Origin: Nitrospiria bacterium
Lineage (GTDB): Bacteria > Nitrospirota > Nitrospiria > JACQBZ01
DNA: 64,000 bases
Direction: 5' to 3'
Assembly (NCBI GenBank): GCA_035517655.1
Contig: DATIYJ010000014.1
Span: 1 to 64,000 of the forward strand
The position numbers and the translations under genes are program-made. The notes beneath the pieces are model-generated. The model did no database searches, was not told the DNA's origin, and saw only the letters and a list, made by a program, of their open reading frames with translations. The first letter of the stretch is position 1, and the number at the start of each line of letters is the position of its first letter. This document shows positions 54,512 through 64,000 of the stretch, in pieces.

Positions 54512-55996
54512 ATGAACCCGGAGCAAACGACCGTGCTCGTGGGAAAAATGAAGGCGGAACCTCGTTCGAGGAAATCCACCTCGCCGTCGCGTCCTTTCGA
54601 CGAGATGCATGCGCCGGACGGTTCGGTTCGAGATCATTATCGTCTTTTGGATGAGAGCCTCCGGGCGCTCTCCGCATCGCAGCGGACGCAGAAACGGCGG
54701 GAAGCGGATCGTTTTTTTCACCGTCAAGGAATTACTTTCTCGGTATATGGCGAATCCGCCGGCGCCGAACGGCTCATCCCGTTCGACATCATTCCGCGGA
54801 TCATTCCGGCGAAACAGTGGAAGATTCTCGCGGCCGGCCTCCGTCAGAGGGTTTGCGCCCTCAACGCCTTTCTACACGACGTGTACCATCAGCAGGAGAT
54901 CATCAAATCGGGGCGGATCCCGCCCGAGATGGTGTTCCGCAACCCGCAATACCGGGTTGAAATGTACGGCATCGACGTGCCGCGCGACCTCTACATTCAT
55001 ATCGCTGGCGTCGACTTGGTTCACACGGGTGAGAACGAGTTTTATGTCCTGGAAGACAATCTCCGGACCCCTTCCGGCGTCTCGTATATGCTGGCCAACC
55101 GTCGCATCATGATGCGGCTCTTGCCGGATCTCTTCGCGCGCCAGCCGATCGCGCCGGTGGAACATTACCCCAACCTCCTGCTCGAGACTCTCCGCTCGGT
55201 CGCGCCGGAAGGGGTTCGGGATCCTCGTGCGGCGCTCCTCACGCCGGGTCCCTTCAACAGCGCCTATTTTGAGCACACGTTTTTGGCGCAGCAAATGGGA
55301 ATCGAAGTGGTCGAGGCGCAGGATCTCTTCGTCAAGGGAAACGCGGTCTATATGCGGACGACGGAAGGGCCGGCTCGGGTTCATGTCCTCTACCGGAGGG
55401 TCGATGACGATTTTCTGGATCCCCTTGTTTTCCGACCCGATTCAATTTTGGGTGTGCCGGGGCTTCTCTCGGTCTATCGTTCCGGTGGCGTGACCCTGGT
55501 CAACGCCGTTGGAACCGGCGTGGCCGACGATAAAGCGGTTTACATTTTCGTCCCGGAGATGATTCGTTTTTATCTGGGAGAGGAGCCCATTTTGAAAAAC
55601 GTGCCGACGTATCAGCTGCGCGATCCGGAGGAGCGCGCCTACGTGCTGGCCCATCTGGATGCACTGGTCGTGAAGGAAGTTCACGGTTCGGGAGGATACG
55701 GTATGCTGGTCGGACCGGCCAGCTCGGTCAAGGAGAGAGAGGTTTTTCGCCAACGGATCCTTCGAAATCCCGAGAACTACATCGCCCAGCCGACCCTGGC
55801 GCTTTCAACCTGTCCCACCTTCGTGGAATCCGGAATCGCCCCGCGCCATATCGATCTCCGCCCATTCATCCTGAGCGGCCGCACAATTCAGATGGTGCCC
55901 GGGGGTCTCACCCGCGTCGCCTTGCGAGAGGGCTCCCTTGTTGTGAATTCTTCCCAGGGCGGGGGCACGAAAGACACCTGGGTGCTGGAGGACTGA
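54512..55996 (+). CDS. Circularly permuted ATP-grasp protein (DUF404/407) of the Anbu operon
   Basis: 494 residues. The CP_ATPgrasp_1 type: a first 65 residues poorly conserved, then FFHRQGITFSVYGE, VYHQQEIIKSGRIPPE, DLYIHIAGVDLVHTGENEFYVLEDNLRTPSGVSYML, VKEVHGSGGYGMLVGPASS and ESGIAPRHIDLRPFILSG. Circularly permuted ATP-grasp enzymes form amide bonds with ATP; with the alpha-E and transglutaminase-like neighbours a peptide ligase/protease pathway is suspected. Substrate unknown. GGGAGGA ribosome site. First gene of the Anbu operon, 3 bases before the alpha-E gene. Confidence 0.88.
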   Translation: MNPEQTTVLVGKMKAEPRSRKSTSPSRPFDEMHAPDGSVRDHYRLLDESLRALSASQRTQKRREADRFFHRQGITFSVYGESAGAERLIPFDIIPRIIPAKQWKILAAGLRQRVCALNAFLHDVYHQQEIIKSGRIPPEMVFRNPQYRVEMYGIDVPRDLYIHIAGVDLVHTGENEFYVLEDNLRTPSGVSYMLANRRIMMRLLPDLFARQPIAPVEHYPNLLLETLRSVAPEGVRDPRAALLTPGPFNSAYFEHTFLAQQMGIEVVEAQDLFVKGNAVYMRTTEGPARVHVLYRRVDDDFLDPLVFRPDSILGVPGLLSVYRSGGVTLVNAVGTGVADDKAVYIFVPEMIRFYLGEEPILKNVPTYQLRDPEERAYVLAHLDALVVKEVHGSGGYGMLVGPASSVKEREVFRQRILRNPENYIAQPTLALSTCPTFVESGIAPRHIDLRPFILSGRTIQMVPGGLTRVALREGSLVVNSSQGGGTKDTWVLED

Positions 55997-55999
55997 GCC

Positions 56000-56932
56000 A
56001 TGCTCCTCCGGATAGCCGATCACCTTTACTGGATGGGACGCTATATCGAGAGGGCGGAAGATACCGCGCGGGCCGTGGAGGGGGCTTACCACGCCGCTCT
56101 CCTTCCCAAGGGATATGCCCTTGAGGAATGGGAAAGCCTGCTGGAAATGCTGGGCCAGCGCGACCGGTTTCCGGAACCCTGCGGTTCCGCCTCCACGCTC
56201 GAACTATTACGGTTCGTGATCCTCGATCTTGAAAATCCATCCAGCATTCTGTCGTCCCTCCGATCGGCCCGGGAAAACGGCCGCGCCACATGCGGAACGA
56301 TCTCCCTCGAGGCATGGGAAAGCCTGAACGCCCTCTGGCTCGACCTGAGCGAGATCGATCCGTCGCGTCTGATATCGAACGGGACCCTGCCCCTTCTGGC
56401 TCGCGTGAATGAAGGGACCCAGCTATTCCGGAGCGTGATCCAGACCAAGCTCGATCGCGACGAAGTGTTCCAATGGATCGGCTTGGGGATTTTTCTGGAG
56501 CGCGCCGATTACCTCACCCGGATCCTGCACGCGCGATATCCGTTTCTGTTCAAAAGCGCCAAGGGGGACGCGGCCTATTATTCATCGATGGCTCTTCTCC
56601 GGTGGGCCGGGGCCGTGGACGCCTACCGGAAATTGTATCGCAACGGGGTCACGCCGCGGCAGGTGATCGAACTGCTGGTCTTAAATGAAGAGACCCAGTG
56701 TTCCCTGCATGCCTGCCTGGAGCGGATCAACACCTTCCTCTGCGGGTATTCAAACGGGACGGGCGGGAAAGCGGCGGACGTCGCGACGGATCTGCACATC
56801 CTGTTTCATGAAACCCGGGACACCGACCTCTTCGGGCAGGAGCTGAGCGTCCATCTGGCCGAGGTCGCCCGGAAGCTCCATGGGCTGGCGGGCGAAATCG
56901 ACCGGTGGTTTCAGGGGACGCCGTGCGTCTGA
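56000..56932 (+). CDS. Alpha-E domain protein (DUF403)
   Basis: 310 residues, all-helical: MLLRIADHLYWMGRYIERAEDTARAVEGAYHAALL at the start is the alpha-E signature (R.A..LYWMGRYIER.E..AR), repeated as FLERADYLTRILHARYPFLF in the middle. The family always goes with the ATP-grasp and transglutaminase-like genes of the Anbu cluster; molecular role unknown. Its stop overlaps the next ATG (TGATG) at 56930-56934. Confidence 0.88.
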   Translation: MLLRIADHLYWMGRYIERAEDTARAVEGAYHAALLPKGYALEEWESLLEMLGQRDRFPEPCGSASTLELLRFVILDLENPSSILSSLRSARENGRATCGTISLEAWESLNALWLDLSEIDPSRLISNGTLPLLARVNEGTQLFRSVIQTKLDRDEVFQWIGLGIFLERADYLTRILHARYPFLFKSAKGDAAYYSSMALLRWAGAVDAYRKLYRNGVTPRQVIELLVLNEETQCSLHACLERINTFLCGYSNGTGGKAADVATDLHILFHETRDTDLFGQELSVHLAEVARKLHGLAGEIDRWFQGTPCV

Positions 56933-57732
56933 TGATCCGTCACCAGACCATTTATCGTTACAGCGCTCCGCTCACACGCAGCATTCAGCTTCTCCGTTTG
57001 ATTCCGCATTCGGACCGGCGGCAGCGGGTTCAGGAATGGAGGCTCAGTCTGCCCGCCGACGCGCCGGAATATTTTGACGCGTATGGAAACGTGACCCGGC
57101 TGCTCATCATGGAGGGACGGCATGACGAGATCAAAATCGGCGTTGAAGGTCTGGTCGAGACGTCCGGAAACGTCACCTTTCCTTCGGCCGTGGATCAGCG
57201 CTTTCCGCCGGAAATATTTCTGACGGAAACACCGTTGACGGCGGTTGACGAGCCGCTGAGAAATTTTGCCGATCAACACCGGAACGAAATCGGTTCGAAT
57301 CCCTTCGCCGCTCTCCAGACCCTGATGGAACGGATCCGAAGCCGCGTCCGCTACGTGAAAGGAACCACGCATGTTCAGACGACCGCGGCCGATGTTTTAT
57401 CGCAGGGAAGCGGAGTCTGTCAGGACCATAGCCATCTTTTTATCGCCTGTTGCAGGGCTCTCGGGGTTCCGGCGCGGTACGTAAGCGGGTATGTCTACTC
57501 CGATCCCGATCATCACCCGGAAGTGGCGATGCATGCCTGGGCCGAAGCGTGGGTCGATGGCATGGGCTGGCTCAGTTTCGATGTTTCGAACGGACGACCG
57601 GCAGGCGAAATGCATCTTCGTCTCGCGATCGGACGGGACTATCTGGACGCGTGTCCCGTGAGAGGAGTCCGGTTCGGCGGCGGGGACGAACGGATGGAAG
57701 TCCGTGTTCATGTGGCGACGGCGCAGCAGTAA
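56932..57732 (+). CDS. Transglutaminase-like cysteine protease of the Anbu operon
   Basis: 266 residues. A beta-rich N-terminal domain (IRHQTIYRYSAPLTRSIQLLRLIPHS, the typical Transglut_N) precedes the papain-like core: catalytic Cys in SGVCQDHSHLFIACCRALGVPARYVSGY, His in MHAWAEAWVDGMGWLSFDVSNG with the following Asp. In the Anbu cluster it is thought to cleave or process peptides. ATG 56932 overlaps the alpha-E stop; a GTG at 56923 would add three residues. No signal peptide, so it acts in the cytoplasm. Confidence 0.88.
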   Translation: MIRHQTIYRYSAPLTRSIQLLRLIPHSDRRQRVQEWRLSLPADAPEYFDAYGNVTRLLIMEGRHDEIKIGVEGLVETSGNVTFPSAVDQRFPPEIFLTETPLTAVDEPLRNFADQHRNEIGSNPFAALQTLMERIRSRVRYVKGTTHVQTTAADVLSQGSGVCQDHSHLFIACCRALGVPARYVSGYVYSDPDHHPEVAMHAWAEAWVDGMGWLSFDVSNGRPAGEMHLRLAIGRDYLDACPVRGVRFGGGDERMEVRVHVATAQQ

Positions 57733-57801
57733 ATGGGCGACGATTCCTCCGGTGGGCGAGAAGGAAAGGCTCCGCCCCTATAAAAATAGAAAGGAAATCG
57801 C

Positions 57802-58551
57802 ATGACCTATTGTATCGGGATGTGGCTTGAGTCGGGTCTGGTTTTCGCTTCGGACTCGCGTACCAACGGTGGTGTGGACCACGTCGCCACCTTTCGGAAA
57901 ATGACGGTCTACGAAAAACCGGGGGACCGTGTGCTCGTGATGCTGACCGCCGGCAATCTGTCCGTGACCCAAGGCGTGATCAACATCTTGAGCGAAGACG
58001 CCCATGTCTCCAACGGCCAGGAGACGATTTGGACCGCGACCTCCCTGTTCCACGTAGCTCGAATCATCGGCGGGGCCCTGCGGAAAGTGTACGACGTGGA
58101 CGGAAGCCATCTGAAACAGCACGGCGAGGATTTCAATGCCGCGATCATCCTGGGCGGCCAGATCCGGGCCGAAGCGCCGCGCCTGTTCCATATTTATTCG
58201 GCCGGAAACTTCATCGAATCCACGCCGGAAACCTGTTACTTCCAGATCGGCGAGATCAAGTACGGTAAGCCGATCATCGATCGGCTCATCACCCGTCAGA
58301 GTACTCTGACGGAGGGGGCCAAATGTGCGCTGCTGTCGTTTGATTCCACCATTCGGAGCAACATTTCGGTCGGCCTCCCGATCGATTTGCTCTGCTACGA
58401 GCGCGATCGGCTTCGGGTGGATTTCCGACGCTGCATCGATCAACAGGATCCGTACTTCAACGAGATCAAACGGCTCTGGGGCGAAGGTCTGCGGGAAGCC
58501 TTTGCCACCATGCCGGACCCGTCCTGGCAAGAACGGCTTGATCCGGTTTGA
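57802..58551 (+). CDS. Anbu proteasome-like peptidase
   Basis: 249 residues. Anbu is the ancestral beta-proteasome relative (also called BPH), an N-terminal nucleophile hydrolase forming rings. Removing Met leaves Thr1; Asp17 (SDSRTNGG) and Lys32 (FRKM) complete the catalytic set; GNLSVTQ and the DFNAAIILGGQI strand also fit. Lys32 rather than Lys33 may reflect a one-residue shift. It is the last gene of the four-gene cluster that occurs together in many bacteria (ATP-grasp, alpha-E, transglutaminase, Anbu). A 70-base gap precedes it. Confidence 0.9.
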   Translation: MTYCIGMWLESGLVFASDSRTNGGVDHVATFRKMTVYEKPGDRVLVMLTAGNLSVTQGVINILSEDAHVSNGQETIWTATSLFHVARIIGGALRKVYDVDGSHLKQHGEDFNAAIILGGQIRAEAPRLFHIYSAGNFIESTPETCYFQIGEIKYGKPIIDRLITRQSTLTEGAKCALLSFDSTIRSNISVGLPIDLLCYERDRLRVDFRRCIDQQDPYFNEIKRLWGEGLREAFATMPDPSWQERLDPV

Positions 58552-59056: not shown

Positions 59057-59857
59057 ATGGCCAAAGAAAGGAAAGCGCTTCCAACAACCAAAGTCAAAAC
59101 ACAAGATCTCGGCTACGGCTGGATGCCCGATCTGCCGGACCACCGCGACTATCTCTTCAATGCGATTCGTGTGGCACCGGCGGTCCTCCCTCCGGTCGTC
59201 GATTTACGGCATGCCTGTTCGCCTGTCGAAAATCAGGGCGCATTAGGCAGTTGCACCGGCAACGCCCTGGCCGGTGCGCTGGAGTTCTTGGAGAAAAAAG
59301 ACAAGGTCTTCTTTGTGAACCTGAGTCGGCTTTTTATTTACTACAACGAGCGCCGGATCGAGCATTCGACGAAATCGGACTCCGGGGCGATGATCCGGGA
59401 CGGGATCAAAACCCTTAAGAGACAAGGGGTCTGTTCGGAGAAGAAATGGCCGTACATTATTTCAAAATTCGCCGTGAAGCCGAGCCCCGTCTGCTATAAA
59501 GAAGCGGTGGATCATCAAATTACCTCTTACCATCGTCTCCTCACCGTGAACGATATGCGGGCTTGCCTGGCCGAAGGATTTCCGTTTGTATTCGGTTTTA
59601 CGGTTTATGAAAGCTTCGAATCCACCGCCGTGGCGCACACCGGCCTCGTGAACATGCCGATATCCGGGGAACGTGCGATCGGCGGACATGCGGTGCTTGC
59701 GGTGGGATACGACGATACCAAAAGGAGGCTTCTCATTCGCAATTCCTGGGGCGCCGACTGGGGAATGAAGGGGTATTTTACCTTGCCGTACGAATACGTG
59801 GCGGATCGGGATCTTTCGGATGATTTTTGGACCATCCGGCGCGGAGAACGGATGTAG
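59057..59857 (+). CDS. Papain-like (C1A) cysteine protease
   Basis: 266 residues, no signal peptide, start decided by an AAAGGAGGG site. Catalytic residues visible: Gln60 and Cys66 in VENQGALGSCTGNA, His in IGGHAVLAVGYDD and Asn in RNSWGADWGMKGYF. It is an uncommon bacterial member of a mainly eukaryotic family; bacterial C1A enzymes of this short form are often cytosolic or linked to secretion systems. The LPDHRDY segment before the mature domain is short, so no long inhibitory propeptide is present. Function and substrate unknown. Confidence 0.9.
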   Translation: MAKERKALPTTKVKTQDLGYGWMPDLPDHRDYLFNAIRVAPAVLPPVVDLRHACSPVENQGALGSCTGNALAGALEFLEKKDKVFFVNLSRLFIYYNERRIEHSTKSDSGAMIRDGIKTLKRQGVCSEKKWPYIISKFAVKPSPVCYKEAVDHQITSYHRLLTVNDMRACLAEGFPFVFGFTVYESFESTAVAHTGLVNMPISGERAIGGHAVLAVGYDDTKRRLLIRNSWGADWGMKGYFTLPYEYVADRDLSDDFWTIRRGERM

Positions 59858-59982: not shown

Positions 59983-62900
59983 TTAATTTAGTTTAAGTTC
60001 GGCCGTTGGAGGGCCGGGTTTAACCCCTCCGTTCAACGGAAGGATCCGCGGGTCCCCGGACTGCAAGACCCGAAGGAAACCCCATTCCCCACCTTCCATG
60101 TAAGCCATCCGGTGATTCATATAGAGGTAATCCCCGGGAAGACGGTAAGGTCCTCCGGCGTTGAAATAGGCGTTGAGAAGTTCCCCGCCGCCGAACTCGT
60201 TGTTGCTGACCATCGAGGCGTTGGGCATGAACGGTTCCTCCGGCCATTGATGGCCCTCCACTCCGAAGACGCCGTTCTGCTCGTTAAACGCTCCGAAAAC
60301 GTGGATGGCGATTGGATCACCCGCATGGGCCTCAAGAATGGGCGTCACAGGATCTCCCGTTTTTCCGTCGGAAACACAGGTGAATAAATTGGTCTGGTCA
60401 CAACCGTTGTCCAAACGCAACTCGTAGGGCTCCGCTCTATAATTGATCCCCACAAGGCCGGCGGCCTTTTCAAGATAAGGCATAAAGCTTGTTCCCAGGA
60501 TGTTGTCCTCGTCCTGGAAGAACAGGGCGAAGTCGCGGTAGTTCGGTCGATTGCGATTTTCCGGGATGGACCTGTCCACGATCACATCGGCCCTCCAGCT
60601 GTTTTCCATGGAGATATCCGTTCCGGTTTCCGGATCGCGGTAGACGGATCCTTTCGGGCCGATAACGATCGCGCCGAAAAGCCCGTCGCGTTGCTGGGCC
60701 ATCGTGCCGTCCGCCCAGTCCTGGACCAAGGCCGCATTTTCCCCCAGTTCGGGAGGGGCGTAGAACGTGTAAACTTTGGAAGCTCCCGGAGCCACGGTCT
60801 GGTCGCCCGGATTGAAACCGATGTTGATTCCCTGAGAGTCGAGAGGGTCGTAAGCCAGGTTATCGGCATGAAACGAGACCTTGCCCCGCTTGAGTTCGTT
60901 CTTCAACGTCACCTGCACACAGTCACCGATGTTGACGTGCAGCGTGAGCGGCATGGGTTGGAATCCGGCCGCGGCGACCTTGGTTTTTTCATTGGCAAGG
61001 ACGAAGATTTTACCATTCGGATTGGAGACTTGTTCTTTGCGGTCGAAGTCAACCTCGATCGGGTCCTGCGCTCGCGGGTTATAGACAAGTCCTTTGTCGA
61101 TAGCAAGCACCTCGAATTTCTTCACCGGGGCCTTATCCGGACAGACCGATTTGGCGGCCGGGGGAATATCTTCGTGCCCGGGCAGCAGCTGAAGGTCTTT
61201 CCTCTCCTTGTCCAGGACCCGAATAATTCCCCAACTTCCCTCTGTCAGGTGGGAAATCCGACCGTTGTAATAGAGGTAGTCTCCGGGCAAATGTTGCGGG
61301 CCGCCGGCTTCCGGAATGGAAAGGTCGTGCCGTTCCGCAATCCCGATATGGATTGCGCTTCGCGGTTGGGAATCGGAATTATACCGCTGGAAACGGAACC
61401 AATGACCCGTGACGTGAAGCGTATGGGTTTCATTGGTCGCCGTGACCAAGGCCCGGATCATGATCGGATCGCCCAAATAGGCCCGCAGTAGCGGGGTATC
61501 CGGGTCTCCATGCACGCGACTGGAAAAAAGCAGGGACGGGTCCGGATTGACCGCTAATCGTCGGCTGATGGGCGCCACCCGCATGTTCAAGGCGCTGCCC
61601 GTGGTGTGCGAACCGCCGTTGATATAGATATTCGGGGTGAGTTTGATGTTTTTCTGTTTTTCTATCGGATAGAGCAGGGTGTTCGCGGCGGCGGCCGCCT
61701 GTTTCAAGAGTTCCGGGGGACTCCCGGTGCTGACGGTGTTGGCCGTGGAAAACACGGTGTCCTGGATGTGTAGGACCATCTCGCGGAAGCTGCCGATGGC
61801 GTCGGTTGAGTGAGGTTCGTTGGTGTGAATGTCCACCACATAACCGCTTCGCTTGAGTTTTCCAGTGACCGGGTCGTGATAGGTCGATCCCGGAGGCTCG
61901 ATAATCGTGCTCCCGAATCCTCCATGTTGCCACGTGATGGCCCCGAAGGCGTGGTCGTGCCAGTAGGTCGTCCCAAAATCGGCATCGGGGTAATACCGAT
62001 AGCGGACGAATTCCACGCTGACGATTTCGCCCTTGGCATGAGTGTAGGATAGGGGAGCCGTAAAGGTGATCTTTTTCCCTGAAATCGACTTGATCCTTCG
62101 AATTTCGAACGTCGTCACCTGATCCATTCCGACACCGAGATCGGTTCCCACATGATAGCGCGCCGCCGCCTTCTCGCTTGTGAGAACGACGGAACTCGCC
62201 CCTGGCTTGACCCGATCCGCCAGGTTTCCATTCATCGCCGGCGGAAGGCCCTTTTTCCCATCGATCAACTCATCTTTGTACGGCCGAACCGCCTGTTCAT
62301 AGGAGAAGCCGGTAATAACTCCGTCCGATGCTTGGTTGTCAAACTGCCAGAAATGCGGATGGATATTGAGCTTGCTGGCATAGCCGTTTTCCTCGTTGTC
62401 TTTCCAGCCGCCGTTCGTCAGGATCACATCGATGCAATCGTAGACGTTGGCTCGATACACCAGCGGAACCCGGAGTTTCTCATCGGCCCGGATGGCCGCC
62501 TCCTCCTCTTTTAATACGTAGAGCAAGCCGTCGTTGTCCACGACCGGAGGATTCTTTCCGTCGCCCTTTGCCAGTGTGATCGGGAGTTGTCCGATGACAT
62601 TGATCCGATAAAGCTTTCGTTGGGCCATATTATCGCTTTGAATCGGACAGAGGCTCCACGGACCTTGCTCACCCGGCCGTGCAGGCCGGGTCGTCTCGAT
62701 GCCGCCGACGCCGCCCGCGCCCTTGGGGCCCCCGGGATCGGCGTAGGGGTTGAACACATCGTCCTTTTCGACCATCCCGCCGCTTTTGACATGGAAGGGC
62801 TCCAGCCACGGGGCCGGTCCGTGATTTCGGGCAAACGGCGGCCGTTTTCCAAAATGCGGCTGCAGAGCCGGCCACGCGATCTTCCCGGTGACCGGATCAA

Positions 62901-64000
62901 ACGCGATCTTTCTCCGCTGGCCCGGGCCGACCTTGATGCCCATGTGTTCAGTTGGCGGGCGGTACTTCGGCCATACTTGGGTCGTTTCAGGCTCGGTCAT
63001 CGCCAGGAGACCTTTAGCCGTCTCGCTCCAGGCCCAATCCAAGACCGTCGCATCATGGGCGAGAATCTGACCCCGTTCATCCGAGACATGGCCGGGCTGA
63101 CCCTGGGTGGGCAGCATCGCCGTGACCCAGTCACGGATGGAAACCTCAACCGGATCGCTGGACCAGTCCGTCCGATCCTGCGTAATCGTGTATTTCTTCC
63201 CGAACCAATCGACGGTTTTTCCAATCAGTTGGATGGAATCCACCGCAGGTTTCACCTTTCCTTTTCGGTCCGGCAGCTCCTGAAGCGGCGGCATGATGTC
63301 CTGCTGGTATCCTGCGGTCTGCAGGGTATTGTAGACCCGCCAGAATCCCCACATCCCGGCGACATAATGATGCGCGACGTGACAGTGGTACAGAAAATCG
63401 GCCGCGAGATGCTGGCAAAGCCCGGCGCCGCATTCGGGCTCCAGATTGAAGACCGTTTGAGGTCCGATGACCTGGACATCCACCAGCTCGCTCTTTCCGC
63501 GCATTCGTGGAAATTTTATCGGTCCCATTCGACCGTAATCAAATTCGCTCTGTTCCGCCTTCGGATCCCGCGGCCATCGGATCGTGCCGCCGTGCGGATG
63601 GTGGGAATGAAAAATGTCCGAGCCGCCATGAACCAGGCGGAATTTGGTCGGATCGCCCAGATAAGCCCTCGGGATGGGTGTGGCGGGATCTCCGAAAACG
63701 TAGGCGCTATAGGCCTCGGCCTCATCTTCAAATCCGAAGCGCGCCTTCTGATTGGCCAGGTTGTTGGTCCCGAACGGCTCGCTGCGGTAGTTCAATGCGC
63801 GGGCGGCGGGTCGATAGGCATCCGTGATCGGGTCGCGCTGCGGAATCATCTCGCCGTTTTTGCTCAGCGGCCGGAAAGCCTCGTCTCCGACTTCATGGTA
63901 CATAATCATGTATTCCCGGAAATCGTGAATCCTCGAGTTCGCGATCATGGCTTCCCACCCGCTCTTGAGCGGCTCACCCGTAAACGGATCAAGATAAGTC
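59983..64000 (-). CDS. Giant multicopper oxidase, N-terminus outside the window
   Basis: At least 1338 residues; the frame runs without a stop to the window edge, and the ATG at 63948 is internal. Five cupredoxin-like units are visible plus the tail of a sixth at the edge. Copper motifs: HSHHPH (63592-63609, HxxHxH), HCHVAHHYVAGM (63352-63387, the full type 1/3 motif with axial Met), HPH in NIHPHFWQFD (62353-62361) and HDH in TYWHDHAFG (61951-61959). The two later even/odd repeats have lost their ligands (e.g. GDYLYYNGRIS, GDYLYMNHRMA, LVQDWADGTM). Such large enzymes include Mn(II)-oxidising MnxG-type and ceruloplasmin-like oxidases; Mn or Fe is a plausible substrate but unproven. The signal peptide would be in the missing part. 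Confidence 0.9.
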   Translation of the reverse strand, partial: TYLDPFTGEPLKSGWEAMIANSRIHDFREYMIMYHEVGDEAFRPLSKNGEMIPQRDPITDAYRPAARALNYRSEPFGTNNLANQKARFGFEDEAEAYSAYVFGDPATPIPRAYLGDPTKFRLVHGGSDIFHSHHPHGGTIRWPRDPKAEQSEFDYGRMGPIKFPRMRGKSELVDVQVIGPQTVFNLEPECGAGLCQHLAADFLYHCHVAHHYVAGMWGFWRVYNTLQTAGYQQDIMPPLQELPDRKGKVKPAVDSIQLIGKTVDWFGKKYTITQDRTDWSSDPVEVSIRDWVTAMLPTQGQPGHVSDERGQILAHDATVLDWAWSETAKGLLAMTEPETTQVWPKYRPPTEHMGIKVGPGQRRKIAFDPVTGKIAWPALQPHFGKRPPFARNHGPAPWLEPFHVKSGGMVEKDDVFNPYADPGGPKGAGGVGGIETTRPARPGEQGPWSLCPIQSDNMAQRKLYRINVIGQLPITLAKGDGKNPPVVDNDGLLYVLKEEEAAIRADEKLRVPLVYRANVYDCIDVILTNGGWKDNEENGYASKLNIHPHFWQFDNQASDGVITGFSYEQAVRPYKDELIDGKKGLPPAMNGNLADRVKPGASSVVLTSEKAAARYHVGTDLGVGMDQVTTFEIRRIKSISGKKITFTAPLSYTHAKGEIVSVEFVRYRYYPDADFGTTYWHDHAFGAITWQHGGFGSTIIEPPGSTYHDPVTGKLKRSGYVVDIHTNEPHSTDAIGSFREMVLHIQDTVFSTANTVSTGSPPELLKQAAAAANTLLYPIEKQKNIKLTPNIYINGGSHTTGSALNMRVAPISRRLAVNPDPSLLFSSRVHGDPDTPLLRAYLGDPIMIRALVTATNETHTLHVTGHWFRFQRYNSDSQPRSAIHIGIAERHDLSIPEAGGPQHLPGDYLYYNGRISHLTEGSWGIIRVLDKERKDLQLLPGHEDIPPAAKSVCPDKAPVKKFEVLAIDKGLVYNPRAQDPIEVDFDRKEQVSNPNGKIFVLANEKTKVAAAGFQPMPLTLHVNIGDCVQVTLKNELKRGKVSFHADNLAYDPLDSQGINIGFNPGDQTVAPGASKVYTFYAPPELGENAALVQDWADGTMAQQRDGLFGAIVIGPKGSVYRDPETGTDISMENSWRADVIVDRSIPENRNRPNYRDFALFFQDEDNILGTSFMPYLEKAAGLVGINYRAEPYELRLDNGCDQTNLFTCVSDGKTGDPVTPILEAHAGDPIAIHVFGAFNEQNGVFGVEGHQWPEEPFMPNASMVSNNEFGGGELLNAYFNAGGPYRLPGDYLYMNHRMAYMEGGEWGFLRVLQSGDPRILPLNGGVKPGPPTAELKLN

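Follow-up and report, generated by a model that had tools for sequence, protein, structure and literature searches.

The gene that runs off the end of the 64,000-nucleotide stretch analysed here (the window) encodes a large secreted copper enzyme of the MnxG-like kind. The enzyme probably combines a trinuclear cluster between domains D2 and D3 with an altered second metal site at the D6/D1 interface and a cupredoxin partner. Its minus-strand open frame of 1338 codons extends from 63999 to 59983 and is truncated at the window end, beyond which the gene runs for a further 929 bases to a start at position 64929 of the contig (C14 of genome G000, 86,340 bases). The full oxidase comprises 1648 residues and begins with a hydrophobic, signal-like stretch. 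The initial annotation had described a very long gene cut by the window and had proposed reading past position 64000; the missing D1 unit and the signal peptide are both found upstream.

The best-matching named relatives are proteins of Candidatus Troglogloeales (71-72% identity), followed by those of Ca. Manganitrophus and Nitrospira (52-58%), which places the host in the Nitrospirota, near the order holding the Mn(II)-oxidising Ca. Manganitrophaceae. Among 196 sampled Nitrospirota genomes the oxidase is detected in 87, comprising 82 strong matches from the class of the window and five weak ones; none of the unmatched genomes listed belongs to that class, 89 further unmatched genomes lying outside the list. 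Such a distribution suggests a core gene of the class, not a rarity. The genome itself has three such genes, two of them split by the assembly at near-identical stretches: contigs C48 and C57, whose first 100 bases are identical, each break off an N-terminal part at the left end, and two C-terminal oxidase pieces occupy the right ends of C57 and C29. Both cut paralogues carry the D1 histidine set described below, and both contig-end C-terminal fragments carry the Glu and His of D6.

The three odd and three even repeats can be aligned over their length, and the MnxG structure 9bxa matches along the chain, so that six cupredoxin domains lie on a single chain (Table 1). Residues are numbered on the full 1648-residue oxidase (P0001), the repeat register was checked by aligning the even domains with one another and the odd domains likewise, and the ligand codons were confirmed one by one with a script. 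D1, upstream of the window end, carries a full HxH/HxH set (HIH at 239-241 and HSH at 287-289). The order HxxHxH, HCHxxxHxxxxM, HPH and HDH, first read from the sequence alone, proves correct codon by codon. D4 additionally has H1227 and is without a Cys, and in D5 the second HxH pair is lost. The register makes E1558 of D6 equivalent to H446 and H1606 equivalent to H517, the further D6 motif positions being occupied by G1553, G1556, M1604 and Y1610. An insert of roughly 90 residues separates HPH from HDH in D3 (window 61951-62361), and is not present in D1 or D5.

Table 1. Oxidase features in the window and paralogue pieces elsewhere in the genome.
Feature	Position	Strand	Remarks
Six-domain MnxG-like multicopper oxidase	59983..64000	-	codons 311-1648; rest of gene to contig position 64929
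D2 HxxHxH: H441 (type 1), H444 (type 2), H446 (type 3)	63592..63609	-	invariant, 115/115
D2 HCHxxxHxxxxM: H515, C516, H517, H521, M526 (type 1 and type 3 ligands)	63352..63387	-	invariant, 115/115
D3 HPH, residues 857-859 (type 2 and type 3 ligands)	62353..62361	-	invariant, 115/115
D3 HDH, residues 991-993 (type 3 ligands)	61951..61959	-	invariant, 115/115
D4 degenerate HxxHxH: H1169 and H1172 retained, third position T1174	61408..61425	-	repeat alignment, codon check
D5 degenerate HxH: H1354, D1356	60862..60870	-	repeat alignment, codon check
D6 degenerate HxxHxH (GVFGVEGH): E1558 at type-3 position	60250..60273	-	E or D in 102/112 rows
D6 degenerate HCHxxxH (MNHRMAY): H1606 is second HCH His; Cys replaced by N1605	60100..60120	-	co-occurs with the four D1 His
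Paralogue pieces	L006:1-3861; L007:1-3903; L007:17774-18235; G000:C29:104681-105031

The 12 ligands of D2 and D3 (eight D2 residues and four D3 His) are identical in all 115 non-redundant homologues, so the motif set is not a product of chance. The D1 set, by comparison, is intact in only part of these homologues. The Priestia (MnxG-type), Streptomyces and Halalkalicoccus relatives have the same D2/D3 ligand residues as here, the Rubrobacter relative keeps them except for an axial Met replaced by Phe, and all four are without an intact D1 set. Since the D2/D3 ligands stay constant while the D1 set decays, D2 pairs with D3. Judged from these ligands, D2-D3 is the sole complete site, with one type-1 copper and one trinuclear cluster, because D6 has no HxxHxH/HCH set to match D1. 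Ligand invariance, the decay of D1 in most relatives and homology to MnxG support both the six-domain reading and the original placing of the cluster between an internal even-odd pair. An AlphaFold model of D1-D4 (44 homologues) has 9bxa as its best fold match; with a pLDDT of 58.7, it is too weak for geometry. Electrons from the substrate would enter at the type-1 copper of D2 (H441, C516, H521 and M526); the HCH motif would then relay them to the D2/D3 cluster, where O2 would be reduced to water.

The C-terminal domains had initially been taken as free of ligands. Most ligands are indeed lost from D4-D6, but D6 keeps Glu1558 and His1606, which would face the complete His set of D1. Three D6 ligands are absent in the repeat alignment and codon check, namely the type-2 His, the first HCH His and the type-1 Cys, the last of which is missing from D4 as well. 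A complete second trinuclear cluster at D6/D1 is rejected for lack of these three. The second HxH/HxH set that the initial annotation had named as a threat to its reading is present in D1 (HIH, HSH), while the C-terminal HxxHxH set that would pair with it is absent from D6.

The co-variation of D1 and D6 was followed in the non-redundant homologues with D6 data, which comprise 24 rows with all four D1 His and 88 others. H1606 is present in 24/24 of the former and 0/88 of the latter, with no row having one trait alone. No other of the 1648 columns predicts the D1 set perfectly, and H1606 is separated from that set by approximately 1,300 residues. On a tree built without these columns, each trait changes three times, always jointly with the other; the changes are placed at Nitrospinota, at the main Nitrospira group and at a second Nitrospira-family paralogue group. 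With only three independent events, significance is out of reach (sign test, p 0.25). E1558 is replaced by Ser or Ala in part of the second paralogue group. All sampled members of genome families f1 and f4-f9 have the D1/D6 set, and none of those sampled from f2 and f3 does. It is also found in three genes of Ca. Manganitrophus GAC4. The third of these oxidases (L010:1333-6165) is divergent (53% identical), lies directly upstream of another oxidase, and carries the D1 set as here, Asp at 1558 and His at 1606.

Three-domain oxidases usually hold a first type-3 copper with His 2 of motif I, His 1 of motif II and His 2 of HCH, and the second type-3 copper with His 2 of motif II, His 3 of HxxHxH and His 1 of HCH. 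Owing to the pseudo-three-fold symmetry of six-domain oxidases, the D6/D1 interface is equivalent to D2/D3. Transferred by analogy, this scheme would assign H241, H287 and H1606 to the first type-3 copper and H289 with E1558 to the second, leaving H239 alone for type 2. Judging from internal homology, H1606 would converge with the D1 histidines. Within the lineage to which Candidatus Manganitrophus belongs, the co-occurrence of H1606 and the D1 His, with Glu/Asp1558, suggests that these residues form a second metal site of type-3-like character. Drift alone would hardly account for the pattern of co-variation, which points to selective retention of a metal site. The D6/D1 interface would then be a reduced and altered version of the cluster, in which H241, H287 and H1606 make up a full three-His site for one type-3 copper, H289 and E1558 lie beside it, H239 is unused and a type-1 copper is missing. 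It would most likely work as a mononuclear or dinuclear metal site, with copper, or with manganese as the substrate. The occupancy and geometry of the site, the substrate and the direction of electron flow are the inferred parts of this scheme.

A possible, though doubtful, alternative is a plain MnxG-like oxidase with one type-1 copper and the D2/D3 cluster, whose D6/D1 residues are metal-free remnants of an ancestral three-cluster protein with a structural role at most. A 2013 survey found that residual ligands persist at other interfaces of six-domain oxidases, D1-D6 included (PMC3600357), and the ligand set varies between lineages through at least three changes. The type-1 Cys of D6 is gone, and the site, short of the D6 type-2 His and the first HCH His, may be a remnant in decay. 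Basic activity does not require it, since Nitrospira relatives without it persist. Against this reading, 24 rows, drawn from several families and about 50-75% identical, keep the four D1 His, E/D1558 and H1606 together, and the D1 and D6 residues are lost jointly rather than piecemeal. The altered second metal site is the preferred account of the interface, and the kept D6/D1 ligand set seems to be previously unreported. If true, the kept site would be an extant intermediate on the path by which an ancestral six-domain protein is proposed to have lost three clusters.

At the third interface, a His/Asp pair is formed by H1172 of D4 (61414-61416) and D1356 of D5 (60862-60864), and is conserved in the same lineage and in the second Nitrospira-family paralogue group. 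Examined as a third site, the pair shows looser linkage than D6/D1; it is possibly another altered metal site. In the proposed mechanism, D4/D5 has scattered ligands only.

Ceruloplasmin shares the six cupredoxin domains and the pseudo-three-fold symmetry, but its trinuclear cluster lies at D6/D1 and its type-1 sites number three (PMC3600357), against D2/D3 and one type-1 site here; a complete D6/D1 cluster of the ceruloplasmin type is not present in this oxidase. The initial annotation had regarded the cluster as rotated. The rotation exists only relative to ceruloplasmin, the arrangement being the normal one in bacterial six-domain oxidases (PMC3600357). The 2013 survey puts the cluster between domains 2 and 3 for every bacterial six-domain oxidase that it analysed and for those of two green algae, and the mononuclear site of the bacterial enzymes is in domain 2 only (PMC3600357). 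A newly rotated cluster unlike those of known six-domain oxidases would agree with complete D2/D3 and incomplete D6/D1 ligands, but it is highly improbable and was rejected, as the location is already published, general for the family and holds in the MnxG-type relatives. An active cluster built from D1 and D2, with the first two domains acting like a two-domain laccase, is equally hard to credit despite the full HxH/HxH set of D1, and was rejected because that set decays in most relatives while the D2 and D3 ligands never vary, the MnxG-type relatives being without the D1 set yet with D3.

The best PDB match is MnxG itself, in the structure of the Mnx H340A complex of Bacillus sp. PL-12 (9bxa; E 2.4e-109 by sequence, 2.6e-118 by profile, and also by fold). 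Both proteins have six cupredoxin domains, with the type-1 site located in D2 and the trinuclear ligands divided between D2 and D3. MnxG, part of the Bacillus Mn(II) oxidase complex, is about 1220 residues long, against 1648 here, and the MnxG-type relative from Priestia is without the D1 His set that is full in the present oxidase. The NCBIfam MnxG model NF041487 scores 117.4 bits, far below its curated cut-off of 3100, and filing the protein as MnxG proper was rejected on this basis. The gene next door also differs, being a cupredoxin here; no MnxE/MnxF-like partner was recognised there, without a dedicated search.

The periplasmic multicopper oxidase of Nitrospira and Nitrospina belongs to the same family (52-56% identical) and differs in that H1606 of D6 and one or more D1 His are replaced. 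The 2013 genome paper of Nitrospina gracilis noted its resemblance to the SG-1 manganese oxidase, and a role in reactive oxygen defence through Mn(III) was proposed for Nitrospina and Nitrospira (PMC3578206). The two 'novel MCOs' of Candidatus Manganitrophaceae (mBio 2022, PMC9040806) come from different species and are probably of the same family, since the GAC4 loci L010 and L012 share the D1 and D6 residues.

The adjacent gene, approximately 40 bases upstream on the same strand (contig C14:64969-65838; L004:6970-7839), encodes a secreted protein of 289 residues. Its only Pfam match is a C-terminal carboxypeptidase regulatory-like domain. The putative type-1 ligands, with CxxHxxM spacing, sit in its central part and are conserved among its homologues: H161 in 94/95, C203 in 93/93, H206 in 93/93 and M209 in 92/92. 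This spacing is that of amicyanin. The predicted model (pLDDT 92.9) matches several cupredoxins, amicyanin among them, with probability 1.00, a target TM of about 0.6-0.7 and E-values just above 0.001. By ligands and predicted fold, the neighbour is a secreted cupredoxin. In 61 of the 70 loci with room to see them, the oxidase has one to four cupredoxin homologues next to it, and the protein is a plausible candidate electron partner, with which the oxidase probably exchanges electrons. At L007:14356-17665, three tandem copies of the cupredoxin gene adjoin a C-terminal oxidase fragment.

By homology to MnxG, oxidation of Mn(II), the most likely substrate, is the leading guess for the function. 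The authors on Ca. Manganitrophaceae treat a role of the two multicopper oxidases in Mn(II) lithotrophy as possible, but unfavoured relative to other proteins, and state that electrons from Mn(II) would need to be delivered to a carrier in the periplasm, not to O2 (PMC9040806). The adjacent cupredoxin is directly relevant to this requirement. An unlikely but consequential extension is that the Nitrospirota lineage including Ca. Manganitrophus keeps two active centres, the O2-reducing D2/D3 cluster and a D6/D1 His/carboxylate site that would oxidise Mn(II) and pass the electrons to the co-encoded cupredoxin, with energy conserved. The cupredoxin and the putative extra site, which is lineage-wide but absent from the nitrite oxidisers of Nitrospira and Nitrospina, make the oxidase route in Ca. 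Manganitrophus directly testable. The placing of the D2/D3 cluster was known before; what merits follow-up is the retained D6/D1 ligand set, together with the candidate cupredoxin partner.

On the other side of the oxidase gene, a papain-like cysteine peptidase, recognised by eye, occupies window positions 59057-59857 on the opposite strand and adjoins the 3' end. Further along, at 54512-58551, lies a cluster resembling, also by eye, a circularly permuted ATP-grasp protein, an alpha-E protein, a transglutaminase and a proteasome-type protease.
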